From: Solibacillus silvestris
Lineage (GTDB): Bacteria; Bacillota; Bacilli; Bacillales_A; Planococcaceae
Reading direction: 5' to 3'
DNA: 64,000 nt
Assembly: GCA_001586195.1 (NCBI GenBank)
Contig: CP014609.1
Location: forward strand, 2,756,501 to 2,820,500
The notes beneath the pieces were generated by a model. It saw only the letters and a list, made by a program, of their open reading frames with translations. It ran no database searches and was not told the DNA's origin. Every line of letters begins with the position of its first letter. The first letter of the stretch is position 1. The position numbers and the translations under genes were made by a program. Below are positions 21,880 through 43,323 of this stretch, one piece after another.

Positions 21880-22599
21880 TTATTTTTTGCTAAGTGCGGA
21901 TTCTTTTACTTCCTCTTCAAGAATCGGCAATGTCTCAAGCAATGTATGAAAACCAATAGCTGACGTTAATTGAAATACTTCAAGCAGCTCACCTTGTGTT
22001 GCACCATACTTGATGGCATTTTTCAAATGTACTTCAATACCTTTTTCAAACAGGTGGGTTGTCGATGAATCGATCGCAATATAAATAAATTCGATTAATT
22101 TCGGTTGCAAAATTCCTCTTCTCGTCGGGATTGTTAGAAATTCGTAATAAGCATCGAAATATTCAGTATCCATACGGATCAGATCATCCCTGAAATCATT
22201 CCAGTAACCCATTGTCGCGATAAATTTATCTTTAAGCGCCTGCTGTTCTTCTGTATAACCAGACTTTTCTTCTGATTTCGTATAATGTTTCATCATTAAC
22301 GGTATGCCTACAGCACATGTATGAACACCTAAAATGCTGACAACTTTCAATACTTCGGCAATTTCCTCTTTAGAGGCACCTAATAGCAGCGCTTTGCGGA
22401 TATGGTGTTGTGCTGCTGTCATATTCAAGTGGGTCGGTGATGCACTAAGCGCAATATTAATCAGTTCTCTTGTGACATCATCCAGGTGGCCATTTCTCCA
22501 GGGTGCTTCGGAAAAGCTTTTGTAAATTTTCAGAAATTCAGGATCGTCAGCTAAATAGTGCGCGATTTTTTCATTCCAGTACGAGTAATTTGGGTTCAT
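21880..22599 (-). CDS. Carboxymuconolactone decarboxylase (CMD) family protein, two domains
   Basis: A 239-residue all-helical protein with two tandem CMD-type units: HHIRKALLLGASKEEIAEVL with VHTCAVGIP (about residues 70-110), and VHLKNAIKYGATQGELLEVF with FHTLLETLP (about 185-225). The CxxC pair of AhpD-type disulfide reductases is missing, so a lyase, hydrolase or structural role is more likely than peroxidase support. The start was set at the ATG at 22599 behind AGGAGTGA. It is the last gene of the sigma-54 block starting at 28713 and follows a flavin reductase by 13 bp. Confidence 0.8.
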   Translation of the reverse strand: MNPNYSYWNEKIAHYLADDPEFLKIYKSFSEAPWRNGHLDDVTRELINIALSASPTHLNMTAAQHHIRKALLLGASKEEIAEVLKVVSILGVHTCAVGIPLMMKHYTKSEEKSGYTEEQQALKDKFIATMGYWNDFRDDLIRMDTEYFDAYYEFLTIPTRRGILQPKLIEFIYIAIDSSTTHLFEKGIEVHLKNAIKYGATQGELLEVFQLTSAIGFHTLLETLPILEEEVKESALSKK

Positions 22600-22612
22600 C
22601 AACTCACTCCTT

Positions 22613-23116
22613 TTATTTGCCAAATGATTCGGGAACCGCACCAAGATTTCGTTTGTAATAGAGCATTGCTTCTTTATCCGCCTTATGAATATTTACTACT
22701 TGACCGATTAAAATATAATGGTCGCCAGCATCGACGACATTGTACTTTTTACACTCTAAATTAGCGAAAGCATTTTTAATGACCGGTACTTTATTTTCGG
22801 ATAATTCCCAAGAACACTTACTGAAGCGGTCCGGCTCCTTTTTGCTGGCAAATGCCCAACAAGCATCTCCCTGGTCAGCAGATAAAATATTTACCGTGAA
22901 ATAGTCGGAGTGTTCGAATGCTGCGTAACTTGTTGATTTTTTGTCGATACACCATAAAATCAGTAATGGATCGATTGAAACCGATACAAAGGAATTGGCA
23001 GTTAACCCGACCGGTTGATTATTCGCATCTACCGTTGTTACAACAGTTACACCAGAAGGATAGCTTCCCATCACCTCTTTAAAAAGTTGTTCTGTATTTG
23101 TCTGTACATCATTCAT
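22613..23116 (-). CDS. Flavin reductase-like FMN-binding protein
   Basis: A 167-residue split-barrel flavin reductase of the HpaC/RutF type. The N-terminal PSGVTVVTTVDANNQPVGLT and TANSFVSVSIDPLLILWCID segments are diagnostic. Such proteins use NAD(P)H to make free reduced flavin for two-component monooxygenases. In this operon it is a natural partner for the luciferase-like monooxygenase at 35026-36093. AGGAGG lies 7 nt before the ATG. Confidence 0.87.
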   Translation of the reverse strand: MNDVQTNTEQLFKEVMGSYPSGVTVVTTVDANNQPVGLTANSFVSVSIDPLLILWCIDKKSTSYAAFEHSDYFTVNILSADQGDACWAFASKKEPDRFSKCSWELSENKVPVIKNAFANLECKKYNVVDAGDHYILIGQVVNIHKADKEAMLYYKRNLGAVPESFGK

Positions 23117-23134
23117 ATTTATTCCTCCTCTTCT

Positions 23135-23668
23135 TCATTTCATTAATTTGCTTATATACATCGCATATTTTTCAAGGATAGCGTTCATTTCCTGCTGAAC
23201 TTTATCCGTCAGTTCATTTTTCTCATTGAAGTCCGAAGATGTCGCAAAAATATATTCCGGTAATACAAACATCTTCAAGTAATTGGCAACTGGCTTCACC
23301 GAACTTTCAATAGCAAGATAATGCAGTGAATTTCCGCCTGTAGCTGCAAATAACACACATTTATCGGCAAAATGTTCAACCGGCACGAGCTCAAACAGAT
23401 TTTTTAAAACGCCCGGCATCGAGCCATGCAAGATTGTCGTTCCAATAATATACGCATCTGCCTCTGCGATTTTCCCAATTACTTTTTGCGTATCCCTATT
23501 GTATTGATCAATTGGTTTACCTGCACAAAATTCTAACTGAACGTCTTTTAAATCGAGAAATTCCATTTCGGTATTCGGCATTTTGTGCTGCAAATCTTCA
23601 GATAGCTTTTTTGTTAATAAGCTCGTTTTTGAACCGACTAAAGTACCGCTAATGCTTAAGATTTTCAC
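23135..23668 (-). CDS. NAD(P)H-dependent FMN reductase (SsuE-like)
   Basis: A 177-residue flavodoxin-fold reductase. It has an N-terminal phosphate loop SISGTLVGSKTS and the middle GTTILHGSMPGVLKNLFELV segment of the NADPH-dependent FMN reductase family. The start was set at the GTG at 23668 because AGAGGTG precedes it by 6 nt; a GTG three codons earlier lies inside that site. It is a second flavin reductase in the same operon as the split-barrel one, reinforcing the idea that reduced flavin is supplied to an oxygenase. Confidence 0.8.
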   Translation of the reverse strand: MKILSISGTLVGSKTSLLTKKLSEDLQHKMPNTEMEFLDLKDVQLEFCAGKPIDQYNRDTQKVIGKIAEADAYIIGTTILHGSMPGVLKNLFELVPVEHFADKCVLFAATGGNSLHYLAIESSVKPVANYLKMFVLPEYIFATSSDFNEKNELTDKVQQEMNAILEKYAMYISKLMK

Positions 23669-23683
23669 CTGATTCACCTCTTT

Positions 23684-24448
23684 TTATGGAGCTCCTGTTA
23701 CATAAATCGTTTGGCCCGTAATGTAGCTCGCTTCGTCGGAGCTTAAAAACAATATTGTGTAGGCGATATCTTCCGGTTTCCCGGTACGTCGAATCGGGTT
23801 TTGACTGATCATCGTCTGCTTCATTTTTTGGAAATCTTCAATCCCCCGATTTTTCGCAAGGCTTTCGGATACGGCACTCATCTCGGTGTCGATAAATCCG
23901 GGCGCTACACCGTTTACATTAATATTGTCCGGTCCTAATTCAATTGCTAATGTGCGGACCATTCCTTGTATGCCTGCTTTTGCTGCGGCGTAGTTCACTC
24001 GTCCTTTAGCTCCCAATGCAGCCTGAGATGAAATAAGGACCACTTTACCGCTGTTTTGTTCTACCATATAAGGAGCTACAGCCTGTGTAATGAGGAAAGC
24101 CCCTTTTAAATTAATGTTAATGACTGTATCCCATTCTTCTTCTTTCAAATTCGGCAGTAGATTGTCTTGTAAAATGCCGACACAGTTAATTAAAATATCG
24201 ATTTCCTTAAAATGGGCGATCGCTTTAGATACGGCTTCGTTTACGAGCGTTTTGTCCGTAATGTCAACTTTGAATGTCAGCACTTCAACATCCGCAGTGC
24301 GTAACCGCCCAGCTGTTTCTTCAAGCTTCGTTTCATTCCAGTCGAGCAATACAAGATGTGCCCCTTCCTGTGCCAACAAAGAGGCCGTCTTGGCACCGAT
24401 CCCATTCGCCCCGCCCGTGATCAGGGCTACCTTTTGCTGAAAGCGCAT
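23684..24448 (-). CDS. Short-chain dehydrogenase/reductase
   Basis: A 254-residue classical SDR. The cofactor loop ITGGANGIGAK is at residues 10-20, NCVG replaces NNAG, and the catalytic Ser and YAAAK (about residues 142 and 155-159) are intact. A C-terminal ITGQTIYVTGAP agrees with family length. It oxidises or reduces an alcohol/ketone, probably a hydroxyacyl intermediate of this operon. AAAGGAG precedes the ATG. Confidence 0.87.
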   Translation of the reverse strand: MRFQQKVALITGGANGIGAKTASLLAQEGAHLVLLDWNETKLEETAGRLRTADVEVLTFKVDITDKTLVNEAVSKAIAHFKEIDILINCVGILQDNLLPNLKEEEWDTVININLKGAFLITQAVAPYMVEQNSGKVVLISSQAALGAKGRVNYAAAKAGIQGMVRTLAIELGPDNINVNGVAPGFIDTEMSAVSESLAKNRGIEDFQKMKQTMISQNPIRRTGKPEDIAYTILFLSSDEASYITGQTIYVTGAP

Positions 24449-24490
24449 AAAATTCTCCTTTGCAAAGAAAGTGAGGAAATTTGAAAATGC

Positions 24491-25300
24491 CTAAACTTCC
24501 TGCTCATTAAACCACTGGATGGCTCCTTTTAATCCAAGCTCCGAAATCTTTTGCTGAACTAGCTTGATGCCGTCTGCTGTATGGATAATCGCATCTTGCT
24601 CAGGACCGAACATGACACCTGTACGGAAACCTTGTAAATCCATAATGCGGTTGTGCGCCTGCTTTTTCAGTTTCAAAATATCGAGCGGTGTTTTCGCGAT
24701 GCCTTTAGCAATTTTTAATGTTTCCTCTTCCAGTTCACCTGAGTTCACACATTTCGCCGCAATTCCGTACTGCTCCGCTTCACGCCCTGAAATTCGGCTG
24801 CCTGCTGTTAAGTCGAGCATTTTAGCGCGCTGATGACCGATATGCCAGCCCCAGTAAATTCCTACGAAACCTCCGCCAAGCGGAAGTGAAGGGAATCCGA
24901 ATTGTGTATCTTCATCGGTAATAACAATATCGCAGCTTGCAAGAAGCTGTGTACCTCCAGCAAGGGCATAACCATGTACTTGGGCAATGATCGGTTTCGG
25001 ATATTCCCAAATACGCAGCCATCTGCGTGTATATTGCTCCAGATTATTTTTGTCTTCAATGACAGATGGCGATTTGTATTTTTCCACGTCATAACCAACA
25101 CTAAATGCACGGCCGCTTCCTTTAATAATGAGTACGCTTACACTGTCGTCATGTTCCAGATCATCAAGCGCATAATCCAAATCTCTGAATAAATCGGCGT
25201 TCAATGCATTTAATTTCTCTGGACGATTTAAAATGACGTAGGCAATTCTCCCTTTCTTTTCTACTAATACAGCCTTTTCTTTTACGATTTCGTTTGACAT
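24491..25300 (-). CDS. Enoyl-CoA hydratase/isomerase-fold protein lacking the hydratase Glu pair
   Basis: A 269-residue crotonase-superfamily protein. The fold signature GYALAGGTQLLASCDIVI (about residue 110) is clear and the oxyanion-hole glycines are present. However, where hydratases have two catalytic Glu (as in GGGCEL and PE before the LG segment of the other crotonase at 40266), this protein has GGTQL and PSL. It is therefore unlikely to hydrate enoyl-CoA in the standard way and may be an isomerase, hydrolase, C-C lyase or ring-cleaving member. It lies between an acyl-CoA dehydrogenase and an SDR in the sigma-54 operon. Confidence 0.85.
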   Translation of the reverse strand: MSNEIVKEKAVLVEKKGRIAYVILNRPEKLNALNADLFRDLDYALDDLEHDDSVSVLIIKGSGRAFSVGYDVEKYKSPSVIEDKNNLEQYTRRWLRIWEYPKPIIAQVHGYALAGGTQLLASCDIVITDEDTQFGFPSLPLGGGFVGIYWGWHIGHQRAKMLDLTAGSRISGREAEQYGIAAKCVNSGELEEETLKIAKGIAKTPLDILKLKKQAHNRIMDLQGFRTGVMFGPEQDAIIHTADGIKLVQQKISELGLKGAIQWFNEQEV

Positions 25301-25327
25301 GTATAAGCCTCCCTTTTCCTATGTTTT

Positions 25328-26563
25328 TTAGCTGAAATTCAAGTCACCTTTTAACAGACTTTTCGCTACTGTACGACGGTGGATTTCCGAAGTCCCGTCA
25401 GGAATTCTAAGTGTTCTTGCTAAACGGAAGCCTTCTTCAAGCTCCAGTTCATTGGAAATACCAACGCCACCATGAATTTGGATCGCTTTGTCATAAACAC
25501 GGCCCATCATTTCCGTACAATATGCTTTCACCATTGAAATTTCTTTCGCCGGAGTTTTTTCCGAATTTTCAATCTTCCACGCACAGTGTAATGCCATATT
25601 GCGAGCTGCGTAAATATCCATTGCACAATCTGCCAACATTACTTGAATCATTTGGTGTTCGCCAATTTTTTTACCGAATGTTTGACGAATGTTTGCGTAT
25701 TCTACTGCTTTCTTTAATGCCCATTGTGCGGAACCGATACATTTACCGCTCATACCTAATCGGCCGTTATTAATACCGTGAATTGCTTTTGTGAATCCAT
25801 TGTCTACTTCGCCGATTACATGTTCATGAGGAACGCGTAGATTATCGAAACTTAAAATCGTTGCATCGCCGCCAAGTGAACCCATTGTCGGAATAACTGA
25901 ATCGACATTGAATCCTTCCCAGCCTGTTTCCACGAAGAAACAAGAGATACCGCCTTTTCGCTGTGCGACAAGTTCAGGATTTGTCACTGCAAATAACATA
26001 CAGTAATCGGAGTGCGCAGCATGTGAAATCCATTGTTTCGCACCATTGATCACCCATGTGTCACCGTCTTTTACAGCACGTGTTTTAATTCCCCAAACGT
26101 CCGACCCGGCATCTGGTTCTGTTAAACCGAAGCAAAGTGTTTTTTCACCGCTCGCAATACCCGGCAAATACTTTTCTTTCAGCGCAGGCTGCAATCCTGT
26201 CAATACAGGTGTCAATCCGTTTGTAAAAGGTGAAGGGATAATGACATGCTCGATTAATTTTCGGTTTGGATACAATTTGTTCAGTGCTTCCGCTACAAGT
26301 AAAGATGTAACCGGTCCTAATTGTTCACCGCCAAGCTCTTTATCGCCGAACATTGTATAAAACCCAGCTCTTGCCGATTCCATTCGTACAGTTTTTCGCA
26401 GTTCCTCCACCTTCGGGGAACGGCGGCCATCTTCTAAGTAATAGTTTCGCGAGTTATATAAAACATCACGATTTGCTTCCTCCAACGGGATAACTACTTT
26501 CTCCACAAATTGCTTTAATGCACCGATAATTTCTTGTGTGTCTTCCGGTATACGAAAATCCAT
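25328..26563 (-). CDS. Acyl-CoA dehydrogenase family protein (ACAD10/11-like C-terminus)
   Basis: A 411-residue FAD flavoprotein. FGLTEPDAGSDVWGIKT, WVINGAKQWISHA and VRMESARAGFYT are visible. At the position of the usual catalytic Glu (YEGTSEIQ) it has RIPDGTSEIHR, an Asp-containing form also seen in ACAD10/11-type dehydrogenases. This suggests a substrate other than plain fatty acyl-CoA, perhaps a branched or hydroxylated acid. GGAGAG precedes the ATG. It follows the CoA ligase gene by 38 bp and should donate electrons to ETF. Confidence 0.87.
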   Translation of the reverse strand: MDFRIPEDTQEIIGALKQFVEKVVIPLEEANRDVLYNSRNYYLEDGRRSPKVEELRKTVRMESARAGFYTMFGDKELGGEQLGPVTSLLVAEALNKLYPNRKLIEHVIIPSPFTNGLTPVLTGLQPALKEKYLPGIASGEKTLCFGLTEPDAGSDVWGIKTRAVKDGDTWVINGAKQWISHAAHSDYCMLFAVTNPELVAQRKGGISCFFVETGWEGFNVDSVIPTMGSLGGDATILSFDNLRVPHEHVIGEVDNGFTKAIHGINNGRLGMSGKCIGSAQWALKKAVEYANIRQTFGKKIGEHQMIQVMLADCAMDIYAARNMALHCAWKIENSEKTPAKEISMVKAYCTEMMGRVYDKAIQIHGGVGISNELELEEGFRLARTLRIPDGTSEIHRRTVAKSLLKGDLNFS

Positions 26564-26601
26564 AACTGTTCTCTCCTCTATTAACGTAATTTATTAGTTT
26601 A

Positions 26602-28713
26602 CTAGTTTTTAAGCGTAATTAAGCCGTCCGCAATTTTAACTCCGTGACCTTCATCAAAAACCATAACGGGATTCAAATCCGCTTCCAGAATATCCTCTTC
26701 AACTGTTGCAATTACTTTACTGAAGTCGGAAATCAACTTGCTTAATGCATCGATATCACGCGCTTTTTTTCCGCGGTATGCTTGCAGTACCTGACTTGCA
26801 CTGAGCTCTTCAATCATCTCTTTCGCCTGTTCACGGGAAACAGGTGCTTTTCGCATTGAAATATCTTTTAATACTTCGATATAAATACCGCCAAGGCCGA
26901 CAATGACCATCTGACCGAAAATCGGATCACGCTTGGAGCCGACAAACATTTCGGTAAAATCGCCTTTAATCATTTCCTGGATCAATATCCCTTCAAATGT
27001 TGCATTTGGCGTTGCTTCAATAATGGCTTTTAATTTATTGAATTCCTCAATCGCCTGTTCTTCTGATGTAATGTTTAGACTGACGAGCCCTTTGTCCGTT
27101 TTGTGCAAAATTTGCGGGGACATCCCTTTTAGCACAAGCGGGTATTGGAAATCCTTTATTACTTCGATCGCTTCCTGCTCGGTTGTGACAAGCTGTTCGT
27201 TCGTAATCGGCAAATCAAACTGCTGCAGGAACTTTTTGCTCGTATATTCCGTTAAATCACCGTTAAGTCCTGTTAAGTCGGCATTAAAATTCGGGATTAC
27301 TTGTTCAAAATTTCTGCTGTTAAATTCACCAAAATCCTTCATTGCCCTTAACGCAATGACAGCTCTCGTCGGATCCTGAATTACCGGTACCCCTGCCTCC
27401 CTAAAGGCCAGGCTCGATTGCGGACTATTGATTGTGACCGTTATTTGAGGGATATGCGGGAATTTATCCTTCATCCTTCTCAATGTTTCAATTCGTTCTT
27501 TAATCGAATCATGCTTTAATCCAGCAAATCCTAGGAAAACAATGGCCGTATCATAGGAGCCGCTCGATAGTACAGCATCAATAAAATCCTCAAGCAACGT
27601 CGGGATATACGAAATTTGGGCTGTCGTATCAATCGGATTTTGCGTGCCTGCAATCGGCAGTATCGCTTTTAATTTTTCTTTTACATCATCTGGTGTTTCA
27701 GGCAATGTAAAGCCGCGTTCTGCCAGCTGATCTGCCAGCATAATCCCTACACCTCCGGAAATCGTAAACACTGCTGCCCGGTTTCCTTTTGGTGATGGCA
27801 GTTGGGAAGCGACATATGTAACATCCAAAAATTCGTCGATTGTCGTTGCACGGTAAACACCGCTTTGACTGAATACTGTATCGAAAACAGCATCCGAACC
27901 AACGATTGAACCGGTATGCGACATGGCCGCTTTCATTCCAACTTCCGTCGTACCAACCTTCAGTGCGATAACAGGCTTATTGTTTTCTTTTGCAAGCTTG
28001 AACGCATTGATCAGTTTATTTCCGTCTTTTACGCCTTCGATATAGCAGGCAATGACATCCGTGTTTGGATCTGTCGCCAAATATTCAATACAATCGGCTA
28101 CATCCACATCTGCCTCGTTTCCTGTTGCGATAAAATAGCTGAATCCGATATTTTGCTGTCTTGCCAGTGTAAAAACGTGAGAACCGAATGCGCCACTTTG
28201 ACTGACAAACCCGATTTTGCTGTCCAGCGGTTTTTCATCTTCAATAATTGTTGAAAATGTACCGTAAAATCCTAATTGGACATTGAACAAACCGAGGCAG
28301 TTTGGACCGAGTACTCGGATGCCGTATTGCTTGGCAATTTGTACAATTTTTTGTTGTTCCAGTTCACCTTCTTGACCGATTTCTCCAAAGCCCGCACTGA
28401 AAATGACAACAGATTTTACACCTTGCTTTGCACACTTCTCCAGGTTTTCAATTACGGCAGAACTCGGTAATGCGATGATGGCAACATCCACTGAGTTTTC
28501 TACACTTAAAATGTCGTGAAAGCATGTTAAACCATTAATCTCGTCATACTTCGGGTTGATTGGATAAACGTCGCCTTTATATCCGTAGTTTTGTAGATAG
28601 CTTAAAGGTCTGCCTCCAATTTTTTTCGAATCAGGAGATGCCCCGATAATCGCAATACTTTTTGGATTAAATAATGCGTCTAAATTATTTAACGTCAACA
28701 CTTCATTTGTCAC
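26602..28713 (-). CDS. ADP-forming acyl-CoA synthetase (acetate--CoA ligase family)
   Basis: A roughly 703-residue NDP-forming CoA ligase fusing both subunits. Order: CoA-binding Rossmann domain (SIAIIGASPDSKKIGG), ligase-CoA domain with the phosphohistidine in MKAAMSHTGSIVGSD (about residue 262), then a C-terminal ATP-grasp part (YPLVLKGMSPQILHKTDKG). It activates an acid to its CoA thioester. The start is uncertain: the GTG at 28713 has AAAGGTG upstream, while ATG at 28743 lacks a Shine-Dalgarno and is only about 15 nt from the predicted transcript start. It is the first gene of a seven-gene block behind a sigma-54 promoter at 28770. Confidence 0.87.
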   Translation of the reverse strand: MTNEVLTLNNLDALFNPKSIAIIGASPDSKKIGGRPLSYLQNYGYKGDVYPINPKYDEINGLTCFHDILSVENSVDVAIIALPSSAVIENLEKCAKQGVKSVVIFSAGFGEIGQEGELEQQKIVQIAKQYGIRVLGPNCLGLFNVQLGFYGTFSTIIEDEKPLDSKIGFVSQSGAFGSHVFTLARQQNIGFSYFIATGNEADVDVADCIEYLATDPNTDVIACYIEGVKDGNKLINAFKLAKENNKPVIALKVGTTEVGMKAAMSHTGSIVGSDAVFDTVFSQSGVYRATTIDEFLDVTYVASQLPSPKGNRAAVFTISGGVGIMLADQLAERGFTLPETPDDVKEKLKAILPIAGTQNPIDTTAQISYIPTLLEDFIDAVLSSGSYDTAIVFLGFAGLKHDSIKERIETLRRMKDKFPHIPQITVTINSPQSSLAFREAGVPVIQDPTRAVIALRAMKDFGEFNSRNFEQVIPNFNADLTGLNGDLTEYTSKKFLQQFDLPITNEQLVTTEQEAIEVIKDFQYPLVLKGMSPQILHKTDKGLVSLNITSEEQAIEEFNKLKAIIEATPNATFEGILIQEMIKGDFTEMFVGSKRDPIFGQMVIVGLGGIYIEVLKDISMRKAPVSREQAKEMIEELSASQVLQAYRGKKARDIDALSKLISDFSKVIATVEEDILEADLNPVMVFDEGHGVKIADGLITLKN

Positions 28714-28769
28714 GATGGCTAACACACCTTTCATCTGCATCATATATTTATTGGTTACACTTTCTATAA

Positions 28770-28785
28770 AGCAAAACGCGTGCCA
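28770..28785 (-). promoter_or_regulatory. Sigma-54 promoter of the CoA-ligase operon
   Basis: On the minus strand TGGCACGCGTTTTGCT matches TGGCAC-N5-TTGC exactly, with GG and GC 12 bp apart. It lies 27-57 nt before the candidate start codons of the ADP-forming CoA ligase. A PrpR-like sigma-54 activator gene is directly upstream. Confidence 0.88.
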
Positions 28786-28890
28786 AACATCATTTTTTCA
28801 GCAAAAAGCTGTTTTTTCTTTTGTTTTTTTCGTTCTCCCCCTTTATAGACCGCTTATAAATAAAGAACTTTTGCATAGTTATTTCATGGT

Positions 28891-28919
28891 GTTTCATAAT
28901 TGAAACGAATTAGTTTCAA
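28891..28919. promoter_or_regulatory. Candidate enhancer (GTTTCA/TGAAAC) for the sigma-54 activator
   Basis: GTTTCA (28891), TGAAAC (28901) and GTTTCA (28913) form two overlapping dyads, GTTTCA-N4-TGAAAC and TTGAAAC-N6-GTTTCAA. They lie about 110 bp upstream of the -24 element at 28785, the usual distance for a sigma-54 enhancer, and related pairs occur at 36311 and 40227. Confidence 0.5.
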
Positions 28920-28960
28920 CAAAAAAACTCTCCAGTGTCATTCCACTAGAGAGTCTTCTA
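28920..28960 (-). terminator. Terminator of the sigma-54 activator gene
   Basis: On the minus strand ACTCTCTAGTG pairs with CACTGGAGAGT and is followed by seven T. It isolates the activator gene from the CoA-ligase operon, which uses its own promoter. Confidence 0.88.
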
Positions 28961-28962
28961 TA

Positions 28963-30891: not shown

Positions 30892-31026
30892 TAGTTTTCT
30901 CCCCCGTTTCACTAGGTGTTATAACATTTCTTTCGAATCCCCTCTCTATAGTATAACAAGAAATTTCTATCTTTCATTTATAATTATCGGGACATATTGC
31001 AATCAATCTATTATTATACTAGAAAT

Positions 31027-31064
31027 AAAAAAAGCCTAAACGCTGTAAAATCAACGTTTAGGCA
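31027..31064 (-). terminator. Terminator of the monooxygenase-TRAP operon
   Basis: On the minus strand GCCTAAACG pairs with CGTTTAGGC (31063-31055 with 31042-31034) and is followed by seven T. Confidence 0.88.
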
Positions 31065-33375: not shown

Positions 33376-33388
33376 CGAATACCCCCTT

Positions 33389-34999: not shown

Positions 35000-35025
35000 C
35001 CCTTTTCCCCCTTGTTATTAAATAT

Positions 35026-36093: not shown

Positions 36094-36167
36094 TTAAGTT
36101 CACTCCTAAGTTTTTTATTTGGTAGTTTTATAAAACGCCCTTGTCACATCGAGCTTATTTTTAATAA

Positions 36168-36183
36168 AGCAATTTTTGTACCA
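36168..36183 (-). promoter_or_regulatory. Sigma-54 promoter of the monooxygenase-TRAP operon
   Basis: On the minus strand TGGTACAAAAATTGCT fits TGGYRC-N5-TTGC, 75 nt before the monooxygenase start codon. Confidence 0.85.
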
Positions 36184-36295
36184 AACTAGCAAATATTATT
36201 CTTTTTATAATATTTTTTGTATTTTCTTCACTAAATAAAGAAAAAGTCATACAAATCGATCGGTACATCCTCTTAAATAATTTTTTCAGGCAAAT

Positions 36296-36340
36296 TAAAA
36301 CGAAATGGACGTTTCAAACTTAAAACATCCATTTCGCTTT
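36296..36340 (-). terminator. Probable terminator of etfA
   Basis: On the minus strand CGAAATGGA and TCCATTTCG pair (36336-36328 with 36309-36301), extended by GTTT/AAAC across a mismatch, then TTTTAATTT. It shares bases with a possible enhancer half-site (GTTTCA at 36311). Confidence 0.65.
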
Positions 36341-36346
36341 TGAAAC
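36311..36346. promoter_or_regulatory. Candidate sigma-54 enhancer (GTTTCA-N24-TGAAAC)
   Basis: GTTTCA at 36311-36316 and TGAAAC at 36341-36346 lie 30 bp apart start to start, 128 bp upstream of the -24 element at 36183. The same pair with identical spacing is at 40227-40262. The left half overlaps the etfA terminator, so chance cannot be excluded. Confidence 0.4.
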
Positions 36347-36373
36347 GCGATTATTATTTTAATTTCTTCCTTA

Positions 36374-37348
36374 TTATACTGCTTTCAACGACTGCTTTAA
36401 TTCCTCAATCAATAGAGGAATCACTTCGAATAAATCTCCGACAATACCGTAGTCTGCAATCGAGAATATATTTGCTTCCGGATCTTTGTTGATCGCAACA
36501 ATAATTTTTGAATTGGACATGCCCGCCACATGTTGAATGGCCCCGGATATTCCGCATGCAATATATAGATCCGGTGTAACCACTTTACCTGTTTGGCCGA
36601 TTTGCAGTGCATAATCGCAGTACCCTGCATCACATGCACCGCGTGAAGCTCCAACTGTTCCGCCTAATAATTCCGCTAACTCACGCAGCATTTCAAATGT
36701 ATCTGCACTTTTTATTCCGCGACCGCCTGATACAATGACTTTCGCTTCCGATAAATCGATACCTGAAGAAACTTTGCGGACGACTTCTTTTACTACCGTC
36801 TTCAAGTCTACCAATTCCACTTCCTTCACTGTAATGTCACCTTGGCGAGAAGAATCAGTTTGTAATACTTCAATATTGTTCGGACGTACTGTCACAAGTA
36901 CTGTTTCTGTTTTCCCCTGTGTTTTTTCAAATGCTTTCCCGGCATATATCGGTCTAGTAAATACTGCATCCTGCTTTTGCCCTTCAATACTTACAACGTC
37001 AGATAACAAAGCCGCATTTAATCTTCCGGCAATACGTGGAGCGACGTCTTTTCCGATCGATGTATGACCAAATACAATGCCTGTTGGCTGTTCTTCATTA
37101 ATCACTTGCATCAATGCTTGTGTGAAGTTTTCGGCAGTCGGTGTATGTAGCTGCTCATTGCTTACTAAAATAGCGCGATCTGCTCCGGCATGAATCATCG
37201 CTTGTCCATGTTTGCTGTCAGCAGTGCCAAGTACAACCGCCACAACTTCACTTTCATCATCCCACTGCTTTGCAAGACTAATTGTTTCAAAAGACACGTT
37301 ACGCAATCCATTATCTCTTAATTCTGCAACCGCTATAATTTTACTCAT
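36374..37348 (-). CDS. etfA: Electron transfer flavoprotein alpha subunit
   Basis: A 324-residue ETF alpha subunit. The C-terminal FAD-binding signature (INKDPEANIFSIADYGIVGD) is complete, and VSGGRGIKSADTFEML with GASRGACDAGY precedes it. It forms a heterodimer with EtfB, encoded 15 bp upstream, and carries electrons from the acyl-CoA dehydrogenases to a membrane acceptor, probably FadF (14304-16424). It is the last gene of the sigma-54 block beginning at 41042. Confidence 0.95.
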   Translation of the reverse strand: MSKIIAVAELRDNGLRNVSFETISLAKQWDDESEVVAVVLGTADSKHGQAMIHAGADRAILVSNEQLHTPTAENFTQALMQVINEEQPTGIVFGHTSIGKDVAPRIAGRLNAALLSDVVSIEGQKQDAVFTRPIYAGKAFEKTQGKTETVLVTVRPNNIEVLQTDSSRQGDITVKEVELVDLKTVVKEVVRKVSSGIDLSEAKVIVSGGRGIKSADTFEMLRELAELLGGTVGASRGACDAGYCDYALQIGQTGKVVTPDLYIACGISGAIQHVAGMSNSKIIVAINKDPEANIFSIADYGIVGDLFEVIPLLIEELKQSLKAV

Positions 37349-37363
37349 ATTATTTCATCCTCC

Positions 37364-38128
37364 TTAAATAACTTTTACGTCCGTACGTAAAATCTGAATT
37401 AATTCCTGTACTTGCTTCGCAGGCTCGCCCTGTAAAATAACGCCCGATGATTTCGGTTTCGGTAAATAAATCTCTTTTGTTTCCGTTAACCCTTCGAGAT
37501 CTTCTAAATCCAGGTCATCCAGTTCCAATGTTTCAAGTGATTTTTTCTTCGCCTTCATAATTCCCGGTAGCGAAGGATAGCGCGGTTCGTTTAATCCTTG
37601 CTGACAAGTTACTAAAACCGGTAAAGGGATTTCGATGATTTCACTATTTCCTTCCACATCACGAGTAATGTTTGCTTTACCGCCTTCAATAGCCAGCTCG
37701 GTAATAGTCGTTACAGCATTAATAGCTAATAACTCGGCAACTAATGGACCAACTTGTCCTGAACCACCGTCAATTGCCATATTTCCTGCTAAAATCAGAT
37801 CCGGTTCTTTGTCTTTTAAGTATTCCGCTAAAATACGTGAAGTCGTAGATGCATCACCATTTTCAACATCTTCATCTTCAATGAGGACTGCTTCATCTGC
37901 ACCCATTGCCAATGCTGTACGTAACTGTTTTTCCGCGTCTTCTCCGCCTACCGAAACAACGACAACTTTCCCGCCATGTGCATCGCGTTGTAGAATCGCT
38001 TCTTCAACCGCATATTCGTCATATGGATTTATAATAAATTCGGCCTCATTGTCTTTGATTTTCCCATTCTCGATCACGATTTTTTCTTCCGTATGAAACG
38101 TTGATTTTAATAGAACATAAATATTCAT
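37364..38128 (-). CDS. etfB: Electron transfer flavoprotein beta subunit
   Basis: A 254-residue ETF beta subunit with INPYDEYAVEEAILQRDAHG near residue 35, LAMGADEAVLIED, LAGNMAIDGGSGQVGPLVAE and a late acidic segment typical of the family. The ATG at 38128 follows AGGAGG by 9 nt; a longer frame to 38164 overlaps the thiolase gene and has no ribosome site. The gene order thiolase-etfB-etfA ties ETF supply to this pathway. Confidence 0.95.
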   Translation of the reverse strand: MNIYVLLKSTFHTEEKIVIENGKIKDNEAEFIINPYDEYAVEEAILQRDAHGGKVVVVSVGGEDAEKQLRTALAMGADEAVLIEDEDVENGDASTTSRILAEYLKDKEPDLILAGNMAIDGGSGQVGPLVAELLAINAVTTITELAIEGGKANITRDVEGNSEIIEIPLPVLVTCQQGLNEPRYPSLPGIMKAKKKSLETLELDDLDLEDLEGLTETKEIYLPKPKSSGVILQGEPAKQVQELIQILRTDVKVI

Positions 38129-38141
38129 CTTTGTTATCCTC

Positions 38142-39335
38142 CTATACTTGTAAATTCTCAACAATTGTAGAGATTCCTAAACCGCCTGCAATACATAATG
38201 TAACAAGACCGTACCGTTCTCCTCGGCGCTCCATCTCATGAAGCAATTTTGTCATTAAAATTGCCCCTGTTGCTCCAATCGGGTGACCAAATGCAATGGC
38301 CCCACCATTTACGTTAATCCGGTCAACCGGAATGCCCCACTCTTTAATAACCGCGAGCGACTGTGCAGCGAAAGCTTCATTTAACTCGATTATTCCGACG
38401 TCCTGTAAAGTAAGTCCGGCTTGTTTCAATGCTTTTTGTGTCGCCGGCACCGGGCCAATACCCATGATTTCCGGTGATACACCGGCTGCAGCCTGGGCAA
38501 TAATACGAGCTTTCGGTTTAAAACCGTGTTTTTGGGCTGCTTCTTCTGATGCGATTAATAATGCAGAAGCACCGTCATTTCTTCCGCTACTATTGCCGGC
38601 AGTTACAGTCCCGTCTTTTTTAAATACCGCTTTAAGTTTTGCCAAATCTTCTACACTCGATAAACGTGGGTGCTCGTCCGTATCAAAGGTGATGGTCGAT
38701 TTTCTTTGTTTAATTTCATATGGCACGATTTCAGATTTGAAAATGCCTTTATTAATTGCATCATGTGCCAGTTGTTGGCTGCGGTACGCGAATTCATCTT
38801 GCTCCTCACGTGAAATACTGTACTTAACGGCTAAATTTTCAGCAGTTTCTCCCATTGTAAAAGAACCGTATTGATCTATCGGCTGTGAACGGGGCTGACT
38901 TTCTGTGTTCGGATCCAAAATCTGTCCGTTGCCTGCTCCATAACCGTAGCGACCGTTGCGAATATAATATGGTGCCGTGCTCATGCTTTCTACACCACCC
39001 GCGATAATAAAGTCCGCCAAACCTCCTCCGATTTGCAGTGCCGCATTATTGATTGCCTGTAAACCAGATCCGCATTGGCGATGCACCGTGTATCCTGAAA
39101 TTTCTATTGGCAGTTGTGCTCTTAGTGATGCTACACGTGCTAAATTTGGTGTATCGGTACTTTGTTTTCCCTGTCCTAAAATGATTTCATCGATTAGCTG
39201 TGCATCAATATTTGTGCGGCGCGTAATTTCATTGAGTACAGTTCCGCCCAAATAATCGGCCTCTACATCTTTCAGGCTCCCGCCCAGCTTTCCGATCGCT
39301 GTTCGGACCGAATCGATAATGACAATGTTTGACAT
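38142..39335 (-). CDS. Acetyl-CoA acyltransferase (thiolase)
   Basis: A 397-residue thiolase splitting 3-ketoacyl-CoA with CoA. The acylated Cys is in HRQCGSGLQAI (about residue 88), NEAFAAQ and the catalytic His in AFGHPIGATGA (about 350) follow, and the second Cys is in TLCIAGGLG (about 380). The ATG at 39335 follows AGGGG by 9-10 nt. It stands between the hydroxyacyl-CoA dehydrogenase and EtfB genes, giving the last step of a beta-oxidation sequence. Confidence 0.92.
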   Translation of the reverse strand: MSNIVIIDSVRTAIGKLGGSLKDVEADYLGGTVLNEITRRTNIDAQLIDEIILGQGKQSTDTPNLARVASLRAQLPIEISGYTVHRQCGSGLQAINNAALQIGGGLADFIIAGGVESMSTAPYYIRNGRYGYGAGNGQILDPNTESQPRSQPIDQYGSFTMGETAENLAVKYSISREEQDEFAYRSQQLAHDAINKGIFKSEIVPYEIKQRKSTITFDTDEHPRLSSVEDLAKLKAVFKKDGTVTAGNSSGRNDGASALLIASEEAAQKHGFKPKARIIAQAAAGVSPEIMGIGPVPATQKALKQAGLTLQDVGIIELNEAFAAQSLAVIKEWGIPVDRINVNGGAIAFGHPIGATGAILMTKLLHEMERRGERYGLVTLCIAGGLGISTIVENLQV

Positions 39336-39348
39336 AGCAAGTTCCCCT

Positions 39349-40191
39349 TTAATCGTATTTATAAAAACCTTCGCCAGATTTACGTCCAAGCTTCCCTGCC
39401 TTCACATACTTTGTGAGCAATGGACATGGTCTGTATTTTTCACCGAGCGTTTCATACAAATATTGCATGTTGCGCAATCTTGAATCCAACCCGACCAGAT
39501 CGGCTAATTCCAATGGACCCATCGGATGGTTTAATCCTAGTTTCAAAGCTTTGTCGATATCTTCAGCTGATGCAACCCCTTCCATCAGCATGTTCATCGC
39601 TTCATTGCCGATCAGACAGTTCATGCGGCTTGTTACAAACCCCGGGAATTCATTCACTTCAACAACTTCCTTATTCATTTGAAGTGCTGCCTGTTTCACT
39701 TTTTCATATGTTTCATCGGATGTATCCAAACCACGAACGACTTCAACAAGTTTCATGCGCGGTACTGGATTGAAAAAATGCATCGCAATCGTTTGGCTCG
39801 CCCTTTTCGTTTGAGCCCCGATTTCAGTCGGACTCATCGTGGAAGTATTCGTCGCCAAAATTGTATGCGGCGGACAAAGCTGATCGAGTTTCTGGAATAC
39901 TTCGATTTTCAATGCCATATCTTCAAGGACTGCTTCGATAACTAAATCCGCTTTCTGCCCTGCCTCTTCTAAACTCGTTGTATATTGAATATTGGCGATA
40001 GGTTGGCGATCTTCTTCATTTGCATAGCCTCTATCAATCGATTTGTTTAAATCTTTCTCAATTTGCTCTTTTGCATTTTGAAGACTTTGTTCTGAAATAT
40101 CATGCAGTGTTACGTTAAAATTTGCTAATGCAGCAGAATAGGCGATTCCTCTTCCCATTACACCTGCTCCAATTACAGAAATCGTTTTCAT
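39349..40191 (-). CDS. 3-hydroxyacyl-CoA (3-hydroxybutyryl-CoA) dehydrogenase
   Basis: A 280-residue NAD-dependent dehydrogenase. The dinucleotide loop VIGAGVMGRGIAYSA is at the N-terminus, the signature HFFNPVPRMKLVEVVRG (with the catalytic His) near residue 138, and the C-terminal domain has NHPMGPLELADLVGLD. The ATG at 40191 was chosen since GAGG lies 7 nt upstream; a TTG two codons earlier is too close. Length fits the Hbd/PaaH/FadB2 group of single-domain enzymes. Confidence 0.92.
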   Translation of the reverse strand: MKTISVIGAGVMGRGIAYSAALANFNVTLHDISEQSLQNAKEQIEKDLNKSIDRGYANEEDRQPIANIQYTTSLEEAGQKADLVIEAVLEDMALKIEVFQKLDQLCPPHTILATNTSTMSPTEIGAQTKRASQTIAMHFFNPVPRMKLVEVVRGLDTSDETYEKVKQAALQMNKEVVEVNEFPGFVTSRMNCLIGNEAMNMLMEGVASAEDIDKALKLGLNHPMGPLELADLVGLDSRLRNMQYLYETLGEKYRPCPLLTKYVKAGKLGRKSGEGFYKYD

Positions 40192-40226
40192 TTTCAAACC
40201 TCGTTTCTTATTTCACTTCTTTATTT

Positions 40227-40262
40227 GTTTCATAAATGGAATATTCAGTTTAATTTTGAAAC
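40227..40262. promoter_or_regulatory. Possible activator site (GTTTCA-N24-TGAAAC)
   Basis: The intergenic stretch between the crotonase and hydroxyacyl-CoA dehydrogenase genes carries GTTTCA (40227) and TGAAAC (40257) with the same 30-bp step as at 36311. No sigma-54 promoter was found in the 35 bp that follow, so it would have to act at a distance on 41077 or be fortuitous. Confidence 0.3.
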
Positions 40263-40265
40263 ACT

Positions 40266-41042
40266 TTACTTTCCTACGAAATGGGATTCTCTTTTTTCCA
40301 GGAAAGCTGTTGTACCTTCCAATTTATCTTCGCTTTCAAATACGATTGCCTGTGTAAGCTTTTCCAGTTTTAATGCAGCTTCCAAATTCAGATCAAAGCC
40401 TTGATGAACGACAGCTTTGACCAGTTTCAATGCAAGCGGCCCTTTTGAAACAATCGACTTTGTATAGTCAATCGTTTCTTCCAGTAATGAACCTGACTGA
40501 ACAACCTTTGACACTAAGCCAATCTGTTCCGCTCTGTCAGCATTGATGATGGCTCCTGTCAAAATCATATCCAATGCTCTGCCTTTTCCTATGATTCTTG
40601 ATAAGCGTTGTGTGCCGCCCCCGCCTGGTATAATCCCCAAGTTCAATTCCGGAAGACCAAACTTTGCTGTATTTGAAGCAATTCGAATATCACATGCAAG
40701 CGCCAATTCACATCCACCGCCTAATGCATAGCCATTCACAGCAGCGATGATAATTTTACCGCTCTCTTCAATTGTTTTGCATAATCCTTGCAGACCAGGT
40801 TCTAATGCATCCGCGAAGCGTCTTTGCTGGAGTTGGCCGATATCTGCACCGGAAGCAAAAGCTTTTTCTCCGCTTCCTGTCAAAATAACAACGATGACTT
40901 GTTCATCTTTTTCAAACTTTTTCATTGCCTGTTCAATTTCTTCATAAGTAAATGAGTCCAATGCATTTCGTACTTCAGGTCGATTGATTGTAATAATCCC
41001 TATATGCTGCTCTTTAGCGACAATAATATTTTGAAAATTCAT
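40266..41042 (-). CDS. Enoyl-CoA hydratase
   Basis: A 258-residue crotonase. Both catalytic Glu are present: in ALGGGCELALACDIRIAS (about residue 112) and in PELNLGIIPGGGGTQRL (about 132). The oxyanion-hole segment GEKAFASGADIGQL is intact. It hydrates 2-enoyl-CoA to 3-hydroxyacyl-CoA for the dehydrogenase encoded next. The ATG at 41042 follows AAGGAGG by 5-6 nt. It is the first gene of the block under the sigma-54 promoter at 41077. Confidence 0.92.
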   Translation of the reverse strand: MNFQNIIVAKEQHIGIITINRPEVRNALDSFTYEEIEQAMKKFEKDEQVIVVILTGSGEKAFASGADIGQLQQRRFADALEPGLQGLCKTIEESGKIIIAAVNGYALGGGCELALACDIRIASNTAKFGLPELNLGIIPGGGGTQRLSRIIGKGRALDMILTGAIINADRAEQIGLVSKVVQSGSLLEETIDYTKSIVSKGPLALKLVKAVVHQGFDLNLEAALKLEKLTQAIVFESEDKLEGTTAFLEKRESHFVGK

Positions 41043-41076
41043 ATGAACCTCCTTTTTCATCATTTATAATCTACTA

Positions 41077-41092
41077 AGCAATTATTATGCCA
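41077..41092 (-). promoter_or_regulatory. Sigma-54 promoter of the beta-oxidation/ETF operon
   Basis: On the minus strand TGGCATAATAATTGCT fits TGGYRY-N5-TTGC, 35 nt before the enoyl-CoA hydratase start. It lies just after the flavokinase stop codon. Confidence 0.85.
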
Positions 41093-41111
41093 ACCTATAA
41101 AATTCCGGCTG

Positions 41112-41843
41112 CTACTTTTCCCCTTTTACATGATTCATATAGTAAAAGCTTAGCTGCTCCGTTAATCCTTTAGGTCCGAACTCCAATTTACACTCCCGCG
41201 GAATATAAACAGTGACCCAGTACAGGAAACGTAAAATGGTCATTCTTCTTCGGATGATGTTCACAACTTGATGTTCGGCAAACCATTTGTCCACCGTATT
41301 GTACACCCCTCTGTTCACACTGAATTTTTCCTCGCAGAACCGAACAAAATCCAAGTCCGGCAAATGAATGACCGTTGTTTCAATATCGCGGTTGAACTCC
41401 TGCAGATAATGGGCTTGATAATGTGTTTCCTGATTTTTATTCAGCAGTTGTTCCTTCGCAGTATCGCAGTCTTCGGAGAGCTGTTTTTTAAGGTCTTCCA
41501 CATTTCTGAACTTCTTTTCTCTTCTGATGAAGCTGCAAATTTCCACTTTCAGCAATTCGCCGTAAATTTCTTTATCAAATTCGAATATATGGACTTCAAA
41601 TACTTTTTCTTTCAGATTTTCTTCAAATGTCGGCTTTACCCCAATATTCATCACTCCGCCGAACCGCTCGTCGCCATGCTGAATTTCCACACTATACACC
41701 CCATTAAGCGTGGGGAAATTGATACCGGACTGAATATTTAAATTTGCAGTAGGGAAACCGATCTTCCTGCCGATTTTATTTCCTGCTACAACAATTCCTT
41801 CAAAACAAGACTCTATATTCTCGTAAACTTTTTGAATGACCAT
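41112..41843 (-). CDS. Stand-alone riboflavin kinase (RibR-like) with extra C-terminal region
   Basis: A 243-residue protein. Residues ~10-130 are a flavokinase domain (FEGIVVAGNKIGRKIGFPTANL, LNGVYSVEI, GGVMNIGVKPTFEEN, VEVHIFEF-like strand), matching the C-terminal half of bifunctional RibF without the FAD synthetase half. The remaining ~110 residues are unrecognised and basic/aromatic. B. subtilis RibR has a similar layout, a flavokinase plus a C-terminal part affecting FMN riboswitches; homology of the C-terminal part here is unproven. It has its own sigma-54 promoter at 41880, so FMN formation appears coupled to induction of the flavoprotein-rich pathway. Confidence 0.75.
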   Translation of the reverse strand: MVIQKVYENIESCFEGIVVAGNKIGRKIGFPTANLNIQSGINFPTLNGVYSVEIQHGDERFGGVMNIGVKPTFEENLKEKVFEVHIFEFDKEIYGELLKVEICSFIRREKKFRNVEDLKKQLSEDCDTAKEQLLNKNQETHYQAHYLQEFNRDIETTVIHLPDLDFVRFCEEKFSVNRGVYNTVDKWFAEHQVVNIIRRRMTILRFLYWVTVYIPRECKLEFGPKGLTEQLSFYYMNHVKGEK

Positions 41844-41879
41844 AGTGCCCCTCCGTTCCTTTTTACTTATAATTTTTAA

Positions 41880-41895
41880 AGCAATTTTCGTGCCA
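41880..41895 (-). promoter_or_regulatory. Sigma-54 promoter of the flavokinase gene
   Basis: On the minus strand TGGCACGAAAATTGCT matches TGGCAC-N5-TTGC exactly, 37 nt before the flavokinase ATG. The sigma-54 gene is divergent and starts 88 bp away. Confidence 0.88.
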
Positions 41896-41982
41896 TATGG
41901 ACGATTTATAAAAGAAATTTTACGAAATTTATAGAAAATTCCGTCTACTTCGACTAAACTTTTACTTTGAGGGGGGAAAACA

Positions 41983-43323
41983 ATGAACTTTGATATGAAT
42001 TTTAATGTGAACCTAACACAGACGCTTACTCAAAAACTTTCTATGGAGCAAGTCCAGCATTTAGCGATTTTACAGCTCTCGTCAGTAGAATTAGAATCTT
42101 ACATACGTGAGAAAGCCAATGAAAATCCGTTGCTTACACTAATCGAAGCCAATTTGCAGTCGATGGATAACTTAATTGAATTATCATCCATTCATACTAG
42201 TTATCGGTCCGGCAACTATGCCAACAGTGAATTTTTGCAAAGCCTGATCGTCGAAAAACATTCGGATGTAGATTTTCTTATTGAACAGATTCCGTTAAAC
42301 ATGAACCTTTCACCAACAGATCTGAAAATATTAAAATATTTAATTGACCATCTTGATCACAATTATTTTTTAGATGTGGATTTGAATGAAGTTGCCGACA
42401 AATTCGATGTTGACCTGTTTCATACTGAAAACATATTGCAACTTCTCCAAACTTTTGAACCGATTGGGGTAGGGGCAAGAGATTTAAAGGAGTTTTTGCT
42501 GCTGCAAGTCCAGAACGATCCAGATGCTCCGTGTTTGGCAGCGGACTTTATTTGCAACCATTTAGAAAAGGTCGCCAATCTATCGATTAAATTTTTAAGC
42601 AGCTATTACAAAATTTCAGTTAAAGAAACACAGAATATTATTTTTTATATTAAAAGCCTGAGACCCGTTCCTTCTGTCCAAAATCCTGCAAGCGAAGAAT
42701 ATATCATTCCTGATATATCCGTGGAAAAAATAAAGAATGAGTGGATTATTAATACACAAAGCCAACTAAAATCATCTTTGACCATCAACGAGGAATATGT
42801 GGAACTACTAAAACAGAATGATGAAAACGAAAGCTATTTTCAAGATTGTTTAAAGGATGTCATGCTTTTAATGTACGGAATAGAACAGCGAGACCGCACT
42901 TTATATAAACTAACAAGAACATTGCTCACTATTCAGTCCGACTTTTTTGAGAAAGGTATGGAAAGTTTGGAACCTATTAATTTAAAAGACATTGCAGTAT
43001 TGCTCGATCTGCATGAATCCACAATAAGCCGGGCCATCAAAAATAAATATTTAAAGACACCACATGGCATTTATTCGTTCAAATCTCTGTTTCCGAAAGG
43101 GATTGCGAACAAATCCGGCAAAAAGGATTCGGTTATGCTGATCAAACAAAAAATAGCCAACTATGTCGACAATGAGGATAAGGATTCACCTCTGACTGAT
43201 CAGCAAATTACCGAGAAACTGTTACAGGAAGATATAAAGATTTCACGCAGAACGGTCGCTAAATACAGAGAGGCATTAAATATTCTCAATTCGGATAAAC
43301 GAATTTATTTGTACCGGCAATAA
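41983..43323 (+). CDS. rpoN: RNA polymerase sigma-54 factor
   Basis: A 446-residue sigma-54 (RpoN/SigL). The glutamine-rich activator-interacting region I is at residues 1-50 (LTQKLSMEQVQHLAILQLSS), a core-binding region follows, and the DNA-binding part carries the helix-turn-helix LHESTISRAIKNKYLKTPHG and the RpoN box SRRTVAKYREAL near residue 425. GAGGGGGGAAAA precedes the ATG. It is embedded in the island whose promoters it should recognise and is divergent from one of them. Whether it is the only sigma-54 of the genome cannot be told here. Confidence 0.95.
   Translation: MNFDMNFNVNLTQTLTQKLSMEQVQHLAILQLSSVELESYIREKANENPLLTLIEANLQSMDNLIELSSIHTSYRSGNYANSEFLQSLIVEKHSDVDFLIEQIPLNMNLSPTDLKILKYLIDHLDHNYFLDVDLNEVADKFDVDLFHTENILQLLQTFEPIGVGARDLKEFLLLQVQNDPDAPCLAADFICNHLEKVANLSIKFLSSYYKISVKETQNIIFYIKSLRPVPSVQNPASEEYIIPDISVEKIKNEWIINTQSQLKSSLTINEEYVELLKQNDENESYFQDCLKDVMLLMYGIEQRDRTLYKLTRTLLTIQSDFFEKGMESLEPINLKDIAVLLDLHESTISRAIKNKYLKTPHGIYSFKSLFPKGIANKSGKKDSVMLIKQKIANYVDNEDKDSPLTDQQITEKLLQEDIKISRRTVAKYREALNILNSDKRIYLYRQ

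Follow-up and report, generated by a model that had tools for sequence, protein, structure and literature searches.

Can a sigma factor be the property of the very catabolic genes that it serves, and be gained and lost with them? Sigma-54 requires an AAA+ activator, and it is usually seen as one global factor serving many such activators. We examined a 64,000-nucleotide stretch of the Solibacillus silvestris genome (contig CP014609.1, positions 2,756,501 to 2,820,500; hereafter, the window), in which a sigma-54 gene (rpoN), a gene for a sigma-54 activator and a set of catabolic operons lie together in an accessory island (Table 1; all promoters in this work are sequence predictions). The locus is, in our estimate, probably a catabolic island that can be lost as a block and that has a sigma-54 system of its own, whose sigma factor belongs to a lineage that moves with such modules and appears to use promoters mostly carrying T instead of A at position −11. 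Sigma-54 would act here as cargo, i.e., factor, activator and promoters would be gained and lost together.

The only sigma-54 system of the genome

The island rpoN is the sole sigma-54 gene found in the host genome (G000; one contig, 3.99 Mb). The island's activator matches PrpR_N, PF00158 and HTH_8 and contains the GAFTGA motif, thereby combining a GAFTGA-bearing AAA+ domain with a DNA-binding domain, as bacterial enhancer-binding proteins do; against the PrpR equivalog model TIGR02329 it scored 408.8 bits, below the cut-off of 499.2. PF00158 was matched at six places in the genome, and a GAFTGA-like motif was present solely in the island activator: the second-best place (C1:1341501) reads through the motif region without it, and the four remaining places are weak partial matches that lack it as well. 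The original prediction, made from the letters of the window, had described a PrpR-like activator within a self-contained regulon. Because the only rpoN and the only GAFTGA activator both sit in the island block, this description holds genome-wide, and Pfam and the gene calls agree with the predicted gene annotation, Pfam recognizing each of the three domains of RpoN as well as the architecture of the activator.

Two of the regulators that have PF00158 without GAFTGA (C1:1341501, L011 1084-2427; C1:3275040, L012 1081-2376) were inspected by eye: one lies upstream of a CoA-transferase-like gene and the other beside an aldehyde dehydrogenase-like open reading frame (ORF). They are possibly old sigma-54 activators that turned sigma-54-independent.

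Four minus-strand sites of the form TGGYRY-N5-TTGCT had been predicted, and these are exactly the matches that the window holds (4 observed vs 0.26 expected, with 0/100 shuffles reaching 4). The predicted distances to the first codon could be reproduced, being 27 nt for the CoA ligase, 75 for the luciferase-like flavin monooxygenase (LLM) and 37 for the flavokinase; the hydratase promoter lies 14 nt before the longest ORF and ~35 nt before an ATG preceded by AAGGAGG. Genome-wide, the strict pattern has 28 matches and the reversed pattern 11. Of the 24 strict matches outside the island, 20 fall within ORFs of ≥80 aa, and for 3 of these 20 an ORF on the same strand also begins at most 300 nt away; the other 4 are intergenic, and one of them has the start of a same-strand ORF close by, with which it overlaps. 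The variant TGGCAY-N5-TTGCA has 7 further matches elsewhere in the genome.

When 11 island loci (the window at 16-48 kb, L089 of G008, the eight loci found with the LLM protein, described below, and L093 of G113) were scored with a position weight matrix at a threshold of 15 bits, 31/31 matches were intergenic and 30/31 had an ORF on the same strand starting at most 300 bp downstream; since the loci partly overlap, ~26 of these places are distinct. The reversed matrix gave a single match in the same loci, which was not promoter-placed. The island sites are thus spaced −24/−12 elements that lie upstream of genes and recur in relatives, as expected of sigma-54 promoters, and the shuffles together with the placement across the 11 loci rule out that the four motifs are chance matches. 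A sigma-70 promoter scan of the window performed no better than shuffles. The lactonase-like gene is followed by a terminator-like hairpin, which makes separate transcription of the activator probable; over the window as a whole, the terminator scan found no more hairpins than shuffles.

Absence and recurrence of the block in relatives

Three congeners (G001, G004 and G012) are without the block and have its flanks joined in blastn alignments, as is characteristic of a genomic island. The joined window positions are 14140/44038 in G012, 13329/45052 in G001 and 13466/44243 in G004, the latter two placing the island limits at 13330-45051 and 13467-44242, respectively (blastn of the window against congener stretches). 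Of the short-chain dehydrogenase gene that lies downstream of rpoN in the window, G012 still has a shortened tail; most simply, judging from this tail, it lost the block. A fourth genome, G008, also carries the block (L089, L177). ATTAGAA-rich intergenic repeats, 77% alike, stand at the two island ends (14205-14299 and 45033-45132), and such repeats also occur at or near the deletion junctions in congeners (L175 ~6600-6700, L178 ~7240-7330); by their position, they may promote island loss.

Across the genus, 9/16 genomes have a full rpoN, and the same 9 genomes, as against 0/7 others, have PF00158 at E ≤ 1e-30 (p 8.7e-5, computed ignoring relatedness). G005, which belongs to the rpoN-less set, has a 30-aa rpoN remnant (L087, C11:222092) in a stretch that aligns with the rpoN-activator module of G010 and G011.

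With the LLM protein as query, eight loci came up in six named genomes, two each in Alkalihalobacillus sp. BA299 and Bacillus sp. EB106-08-02-XG196 and one each in Mesobacillus maritimus, M. campisalis, Cytobacillus stercorigallinarum and Planococcus salinus. The same gene order in related genomes, which had been proposed as a check, was recovered as gene content, with the order varied over the 21-kb stretches: common to most loci are the activator, CoA ligase, acyl-CoA dehydrogenase, FMN reductase, TRAP transporter and lactonase-like genes, and −24/−12 sites precede the corresponding operons in Bacillaceae and Planococcus. Within the family Planococcaceae, the LLM gene (E ≤ 1e-80) is present in 3/151 genomes, and in all three rpoN lies inside the island. 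Each of the five carriers in the Bacillaceae has a single rpoN, located outside the island, and P. salinus has two. Scans of the window for tRNA genes and Rfam families were both empty, and no integrase or transfer gene is among its Pfam-annotated genes, a set that leaves aside 14304-16463 and small ORFs.

A module-borne sigma-54 lineage

In the family, rpoN was found in 83/151 genomes (82 above cut-off), with 96 full-length copies, the contexts of 95 of which were classified (the G127 copy was left out). A lineage of 43 copies, supported by an ultrafast bootstrap of 100 and a Shimodaira-Hasegawa-like approximate likelihood ratio test (SH-aLRT) of 97 in a tree of 55 rows (helix columns masked), has a GAFTGA-like activator in the ~19-kb stretch in 40/43 cases and within three genes in 35/43, and is never located at cggR/gapA (0/43). 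The corresponding numbers are 26, 7 and 5 for the other 52 family copies, and 2, 1 and 10 for 15 copies from other families of the class. Some stretches were positioned so that they took in a known activator, and for this reason the in-stretch figures lean upward; the three-gene figures are independent of this. In a 92-row tree, the window's genus requires 6 changes, at least 5 of them forced by well-supported branches, and the distribution of the lineage over genera therefore calls for several transfers or losses.

Promoter base −11 varies with the sigma factor

Position −11 is the last base of TTGCn, a base that was excluded from the scoring of promoters in the sigma-54 contexts. Gene-placed promoters were found in 73/110 sigma-54 contexts, near-identical genomes being counted. 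RpoN residues are numbered by the 477-residue chain in the PDB, which we take to be that of E. coli; D304 and L295 of the island protein align with its N337 and W328. Where residue 337 of the accompanying sigma factor is D, H, Y or N, promoters end in T in 49/52 cases (2 A, 1 G), and where it is K, R or Q they end in A in 65/69 (2 T, 2 G); the promoters of one factor with T337 read G,G. Seven genomes have both kinds of sigma-54, with promoter bases that agree with the residue class, and P. salinus is an eighth, having T,T in the island (one at 13.9 bits) and A,A in its other module. Orthologous island promoters of at least 15 bits carry A in 17/17 cases with a resident sigma-54, and T in 4/4 in G000 and 1/1 in P. 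salinus. In a nested subclade (support 100/99), residue 337 is K, R or T and the promoters end in A or G, plus one T. The copies in G116 have a single residue class, and its promoters end in A, A,A and one G. On predicted promoters, the paralogues thus differ at −11, as specialized paralogues should.

We ranked all RpoN columns as classifiers of the −11 base. Position 328 made 0 errors in 70 rows and position 337 made 1 (L137 and mostly-G rows were dropped; L090, a T/G tie, was counted as T here and as G in the residue-class tally). Helix-turn-helix residues were rejected as the source of the difference, since positions 328 and 337 of the extra-long helix ranked first (position 96 tying with 337) and no helix-turn-helix column was among the 14 listed; a change at position 23 of region I (I to L) was rejected as well, as it follows the lineage and not the reversion. 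According to a cryo-EM study of the closed complex, S335 of the extra-long helix holds the flipped template base of the −11 pair, the first to be melted (numbered −12 there), and R336 contacts N337; the paper does not mention W328 (PMC9770992). On the hypothesis drawn from the covariation, the −11 switch would most likely be set by two residues of the extra-long helix, those matching W328 and N337 of E. coli.

Several observations weigh against this assignment. The tree requires only two residue-class changes, giving two independent pairs (p 0.5), so the residue statistics are weak, and residues 328 and 337 may be lineage markers. Window position 96 of RpoN, outside both the helix and the DNA-binding domain, also makes 1 error in 70; E. 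coli RpoN itself carries N337; and position 335 is Q in most rows of both promoter types. There are exceptions, too: the D337 factor of L137, in a genome with a second D337 factor, has promoters A,A; L226 (R337) has one T, L201 (D337) one G, L090 (K337) T,G and L097 (K337) G; and in G019, the promoters read A,A at one D337 factor and T,T,G at its second.

At L090, L091, L136 and L137, a similar catabolic set (ORF clusters c12 and c31-c33) is paired with sigma-54 of different lineages; of these, L137 retains TTGCA promoters beside its T-type sigma factor.

A candidate activator site

A dyad count over 24 upstream regions, with no preset motif, ranked GTTTCA-N4-TGAAAC first (5 regions), as compared to at most 3 regions for any arm in 20 shuffles. 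Within 350 bp, 22/24 promoters have the dyad at ≤2 mismatches and 17/24 at ≤1, divergent promoters having sites in common. At ≤1 mismatch, 13/20 sites fall in promoter-upstream stretches (7.3 kb) and 7 in the other 225 kb. Within the window, the CoA-ligase and LLM promoters each have a pair of dyads upstream, 20-22 bp apart.

Other results speak against this dyad as the switch of the whole island: the flavokinase promoter has a single weak dyad at −537, the hydratase promoter has none at ≤2 mismatches within 600 bp, and in the host genome the dyad is not specific (28 matches at ≤1 mismatch vs 16 for the reversed pattern), the island holding 3 of these 28, one of them inside the LLM gene. The original prediction had one inducer for all blocks; the dyad pairs fit this for two operons and are missing or remote at the other two promoters. 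As the candidate enhancer is close to only 2/4 window promoters, co-induction of all four blocks is only partly supported. A further perfect dyad lies far from the island, at C1:2346804 of G000.

Alternative explanations

Could rpoN lie in the island by chance, as a relocated general sigma-54 with its targets elsewhere? It is the genome's sole rpoN, and the 24 strict and 7 TTGCA-type matches outside the island would supply targets. However, 20 of those 24 are ORF-internal and no clean upstream site is among the 4 intergenic ones, no second GAFTGA-like motif occurs among the PF00158 places, sigma factor and activator are gained and lost together in the genus, and 40/43 members of the lineage are near an activator. 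With no other GAFTGA-like activator and with the other motif matches mostly coding, we judge this account very unlikely. A narrower regulon is the easier case to make: the activator might govern only the CoA-ligase and LLM operons, with the hydratase-to-EtfA and flavokinase promoters regulated otherwise or weakly, as the distribution of dyads would have it. Still, sigma-54 needs an activator and no second one with GAFTGA was found in the genome, and an enhancer at 42417, inside rpoN, may be shared or act from a distance; we therefore see the two-operon regulon as possible, with the odds against it.

The sigma-54 regulon could also be real and its −11 base be inherited baggage, modules keeping their own promoters with no selection by the sigma factor. 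TTGCW is the usual sigma-54 consensus, and the two residue-class changes, the A promoters beside the T-type factor of L137 and the near-equal performance of a column outside the helix all fit this account. It sits poorly with the finding that orthologous promoters differ by sigma partner (17/17 A vs 5/5 T, plus the T at 13.9 bits), with the agreement of all eight genomes that have both types, and with the renewed change of base in the nested subclade, itself well supported, whose residue 337 is K, R or T. Moreover, −11 separates RpoN1 from RpoN2 promoters in Rhodobacter sphaeroides (PMC3162934, PMC11999139). We consequently regard inherited baggage as doubtful. The full proposal of a horizontally moving Planococcaceae sigma-54 lineage, whose −11 preference would have been switched from A to T by changes at 328 and 337 and partly reverted in the nested subclade, and whose insulated polymerase would work in sigma-54-less hosts with no cross-talk with a resident sigma-54, is in our view evenly poised.

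Proposed mechanism and pathway

Under the private sigma-54 system that we favor, an intracellular ligand, perhaps a pathway acid, lactone or acyl-CoA, would relieve the PrpR-type activator, which would bind the GTTTCA-N4-TGAAAC dyads ~120-165 bp upstream and, via GAFTGA, drive the island's own sigma-54 polymerase at the −24/−12 promoters; ligand, binding and expression are here inferred from sequence features. Uptake by the TRAP transporter, flavin-dependent oxygenation together with its supply of FMN, opening of the lactone, activation with CoA, beta-oxidation and electron transfer would all be turned on in this way. The sigma factor would stem from a lineage of Planococcaceae that departed from the glycolysis locus, its ancestral place, and moved with activators and catabolic operons, and T at −11 would insulate the island promoters from ordinary sigma-54.

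The TRAP transporter, the LLM with two flavin reductases and a flavokinase fusion, the lactonase-family hydrolase, the CoA ligase, two beta-oxidation sets and the electron transfer flavoprotein suggest that a cyclic or branched compound undergoes ring oxygenation and lactone opening before it is degraded by CoA-dependent steps. Among the NCBIfam matches listed, none exceeded the cut-off of its model for the LLM, lactonase-like, carboxymuconolactone decarboxylase-family (CMD), enoyl-CoA hydratase, acyl-CoA dehydrogenase and ligase proteins, and for this reason we claim no substrate.

The gene predicted as a flavokinase does have the kinase part, to which a ~90-aa C-terminal domain (NRGVYN..DKWF) is fused. 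In Bacillaceae islands this domain is a separate small ORF near flavin reductase genes; Pfam and NCBIfam gave no convincing match for it, and the fusion to the flavokinase hints that the small protein acts in flavin supply. The left part of the island (14304-21596) holds a 719-aa ORF and genes for an aldehyde dehydrogenase, a class III CoA-transferase, an acyl-CoA dehydrogenase and a metallo-beta-lactamase-fold protein; strict −24/−12 sites are absent from this part.

Table 1. Features of the island and its surroundings (window positions, unless a locus is named)
Feature	Position	Strand	Remarks
Accessory island	~14141..44037		limits approximate, from empty site in congener G012 (blastn of window)
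CMD-family protein	21880..22644	-	Pfam
Flavin reductase	22613..23116	-	Pfam
NADPH-dependent FMN reductase	23135..23677	-	Pfam
Short-chain dehydrogenase	23684..24448	-	Pfam
Enoyl-CoA hydratase/isomerase	24491..25300	-	Pfam
Acyl-CoA dehydrogenase	25328..26563	-	Pfam
ADP-forming type acyl-CoA ligase	26602..28743	-	Pfam, NCBIfam
Promoter TGGCACGCGTTTTGCT	28770..28785	-	−24/−12 site of CoA ligase to CMD operon
Candidate activator site, perfect GTTTCA-N4-TGAAAC	28891..28906		121 nt upstream of CoA-ligase promoter
Second candidate activator site, 2 mismatches	28913..28928
PrpR_N/AAA+/Fis-type sigma-54 activator with GAFTGA	28963..30912	-	Pfam and motif
Terminator-like hairpin, 12 pairs	31034..31063	-	between LLM operon and activator gene
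Phosphotriesterase-like lactonase family hydrolase	31109..32053	-	Pfam
TRAP transporter DctM	32065..33375	-	Pfam
TRAP transporter DctQ	33389..33874	-	Pfam
TRAP transporter DctP	33938..34999	-	Pfam
LLM	35026..36093	-	Pfam
Promoter TGGTACAAAAATTGCT	36168..36183	-	−24/−12 site of LLM to lactonase-like operon
Candidate activator site, 1 mismatch	36311..36326		143 nt upstream of LLM promoter; overlaps hairpin
Second candidate activator site, 2 mismatches	36331..36346
EtfA	36374..37348	-	Pfam
EtfB	37364..38164	-	Pfam
Thiolase	38142..39389	-	Pfam
3-Hydroxyacyl-CoA dehydrogenase	39349..40197	-	Pfam
Enoyl-CoA hydratase	40266..41063	-	Pfam
Promoter TGGCATAATAATTGCT	41077..41092	-	−24/−12 site of enoyl-CoA hydratase to EtfA operon
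Riboflavin kinase fused to ~90-aa domain	41112..41843	-	domain free-standing in relatives
Promoter TGGCACGAAAATTGCT	41880..41895	-	−24/−12 site of riboflavin kinase fusion gene
rpoN (sigma-54)	41983..43323	+	PF00309, PF04963, PF04552 all above cut-off
Short-chain dehydrogenase at island edge	43460..44236	+	broken tail persists in G012
Free-standing ~90-aa ORFs	L016 20252-20530; L018 19638-19907; L021 18561-18824; L023 19459-19743

Comparison with known systems

Taken singly, the parts of the island resemble known systems. Its activator shares PrpR_N, the AAA+ domain with GAFTGA and the Fis-type helix-turn-helix with PrpR-type propionate activators, and differs from them in falling below the equivalog cut-off and in its target genes. 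The LLM protein belongs to the family of 3,6-diketocamphane monooxygenase-type two-component enzymes and likewise has a flavin reductase nearby, yet it is distant from them (49.7 bits over ~108 residues). The sigma factor belongs to the same protein family as SigL/RpoN of Firmicutes, with −24/−12 promoters, but differs in location, lineage, −11 base and extra-long-helix residues. The Firmicutes sigma-54 gene is known to be associated with lower glycolysis genes (PMC3162934); the cggR-gapA location was seen in 10/15 of our control contexts and in 5/95 Planococcaceae copies.

An rpoN gene on an island, together with activators and targets, is known from Mesorhizobium loti, where ICEMlSymR7A carries rpoN2 with nifA1/nifA2 and target genes (PMC3538637). 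There, a resident rpoN1 is also present, whereas no rpoN besides the island copy was found here, nor any transfer gene among the Pfam-annotated window genes. In the open-access papers searched, we found no paper combining 'rpoN' and 'Planococcaceae' and, judging from titles, none describing this island. The combination of a Gram-positive sigma-54 lineage that spans many genera and regulons, is co-located with activators, is lost as a unit and shows a matching switch of base and residue appears, as far as these searches go, to be new. The covariation of −11 and helix makes the reading of the first-melted base pair and the insulation of paralogues a two-residue, one-base question and, if true, would provide orthogonal sigma-54/promoter pairs for Gram-positive expression systems.

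The closest counterpart of the −11 difference is found in Rhodobacter (Cereibacter) sphaeroides, whose RpoN1 and RpoN2 promoters differ at this base (PMC11999139, PMC3162934). Its RpoN1-RpoN4 are likewise several sigma-54 paralogues, those studied each having its own activator; their targets are nif, flagellar and other genes within one alphaproteobacterium, whereas here catabolic islands across many Planococcaceae genera are concerned, where the sigma gene lies next to its regulon and many relatives do not have it. The −11 effect described here looks like an independent, portable version of the Rhodobacter paralogue effect.

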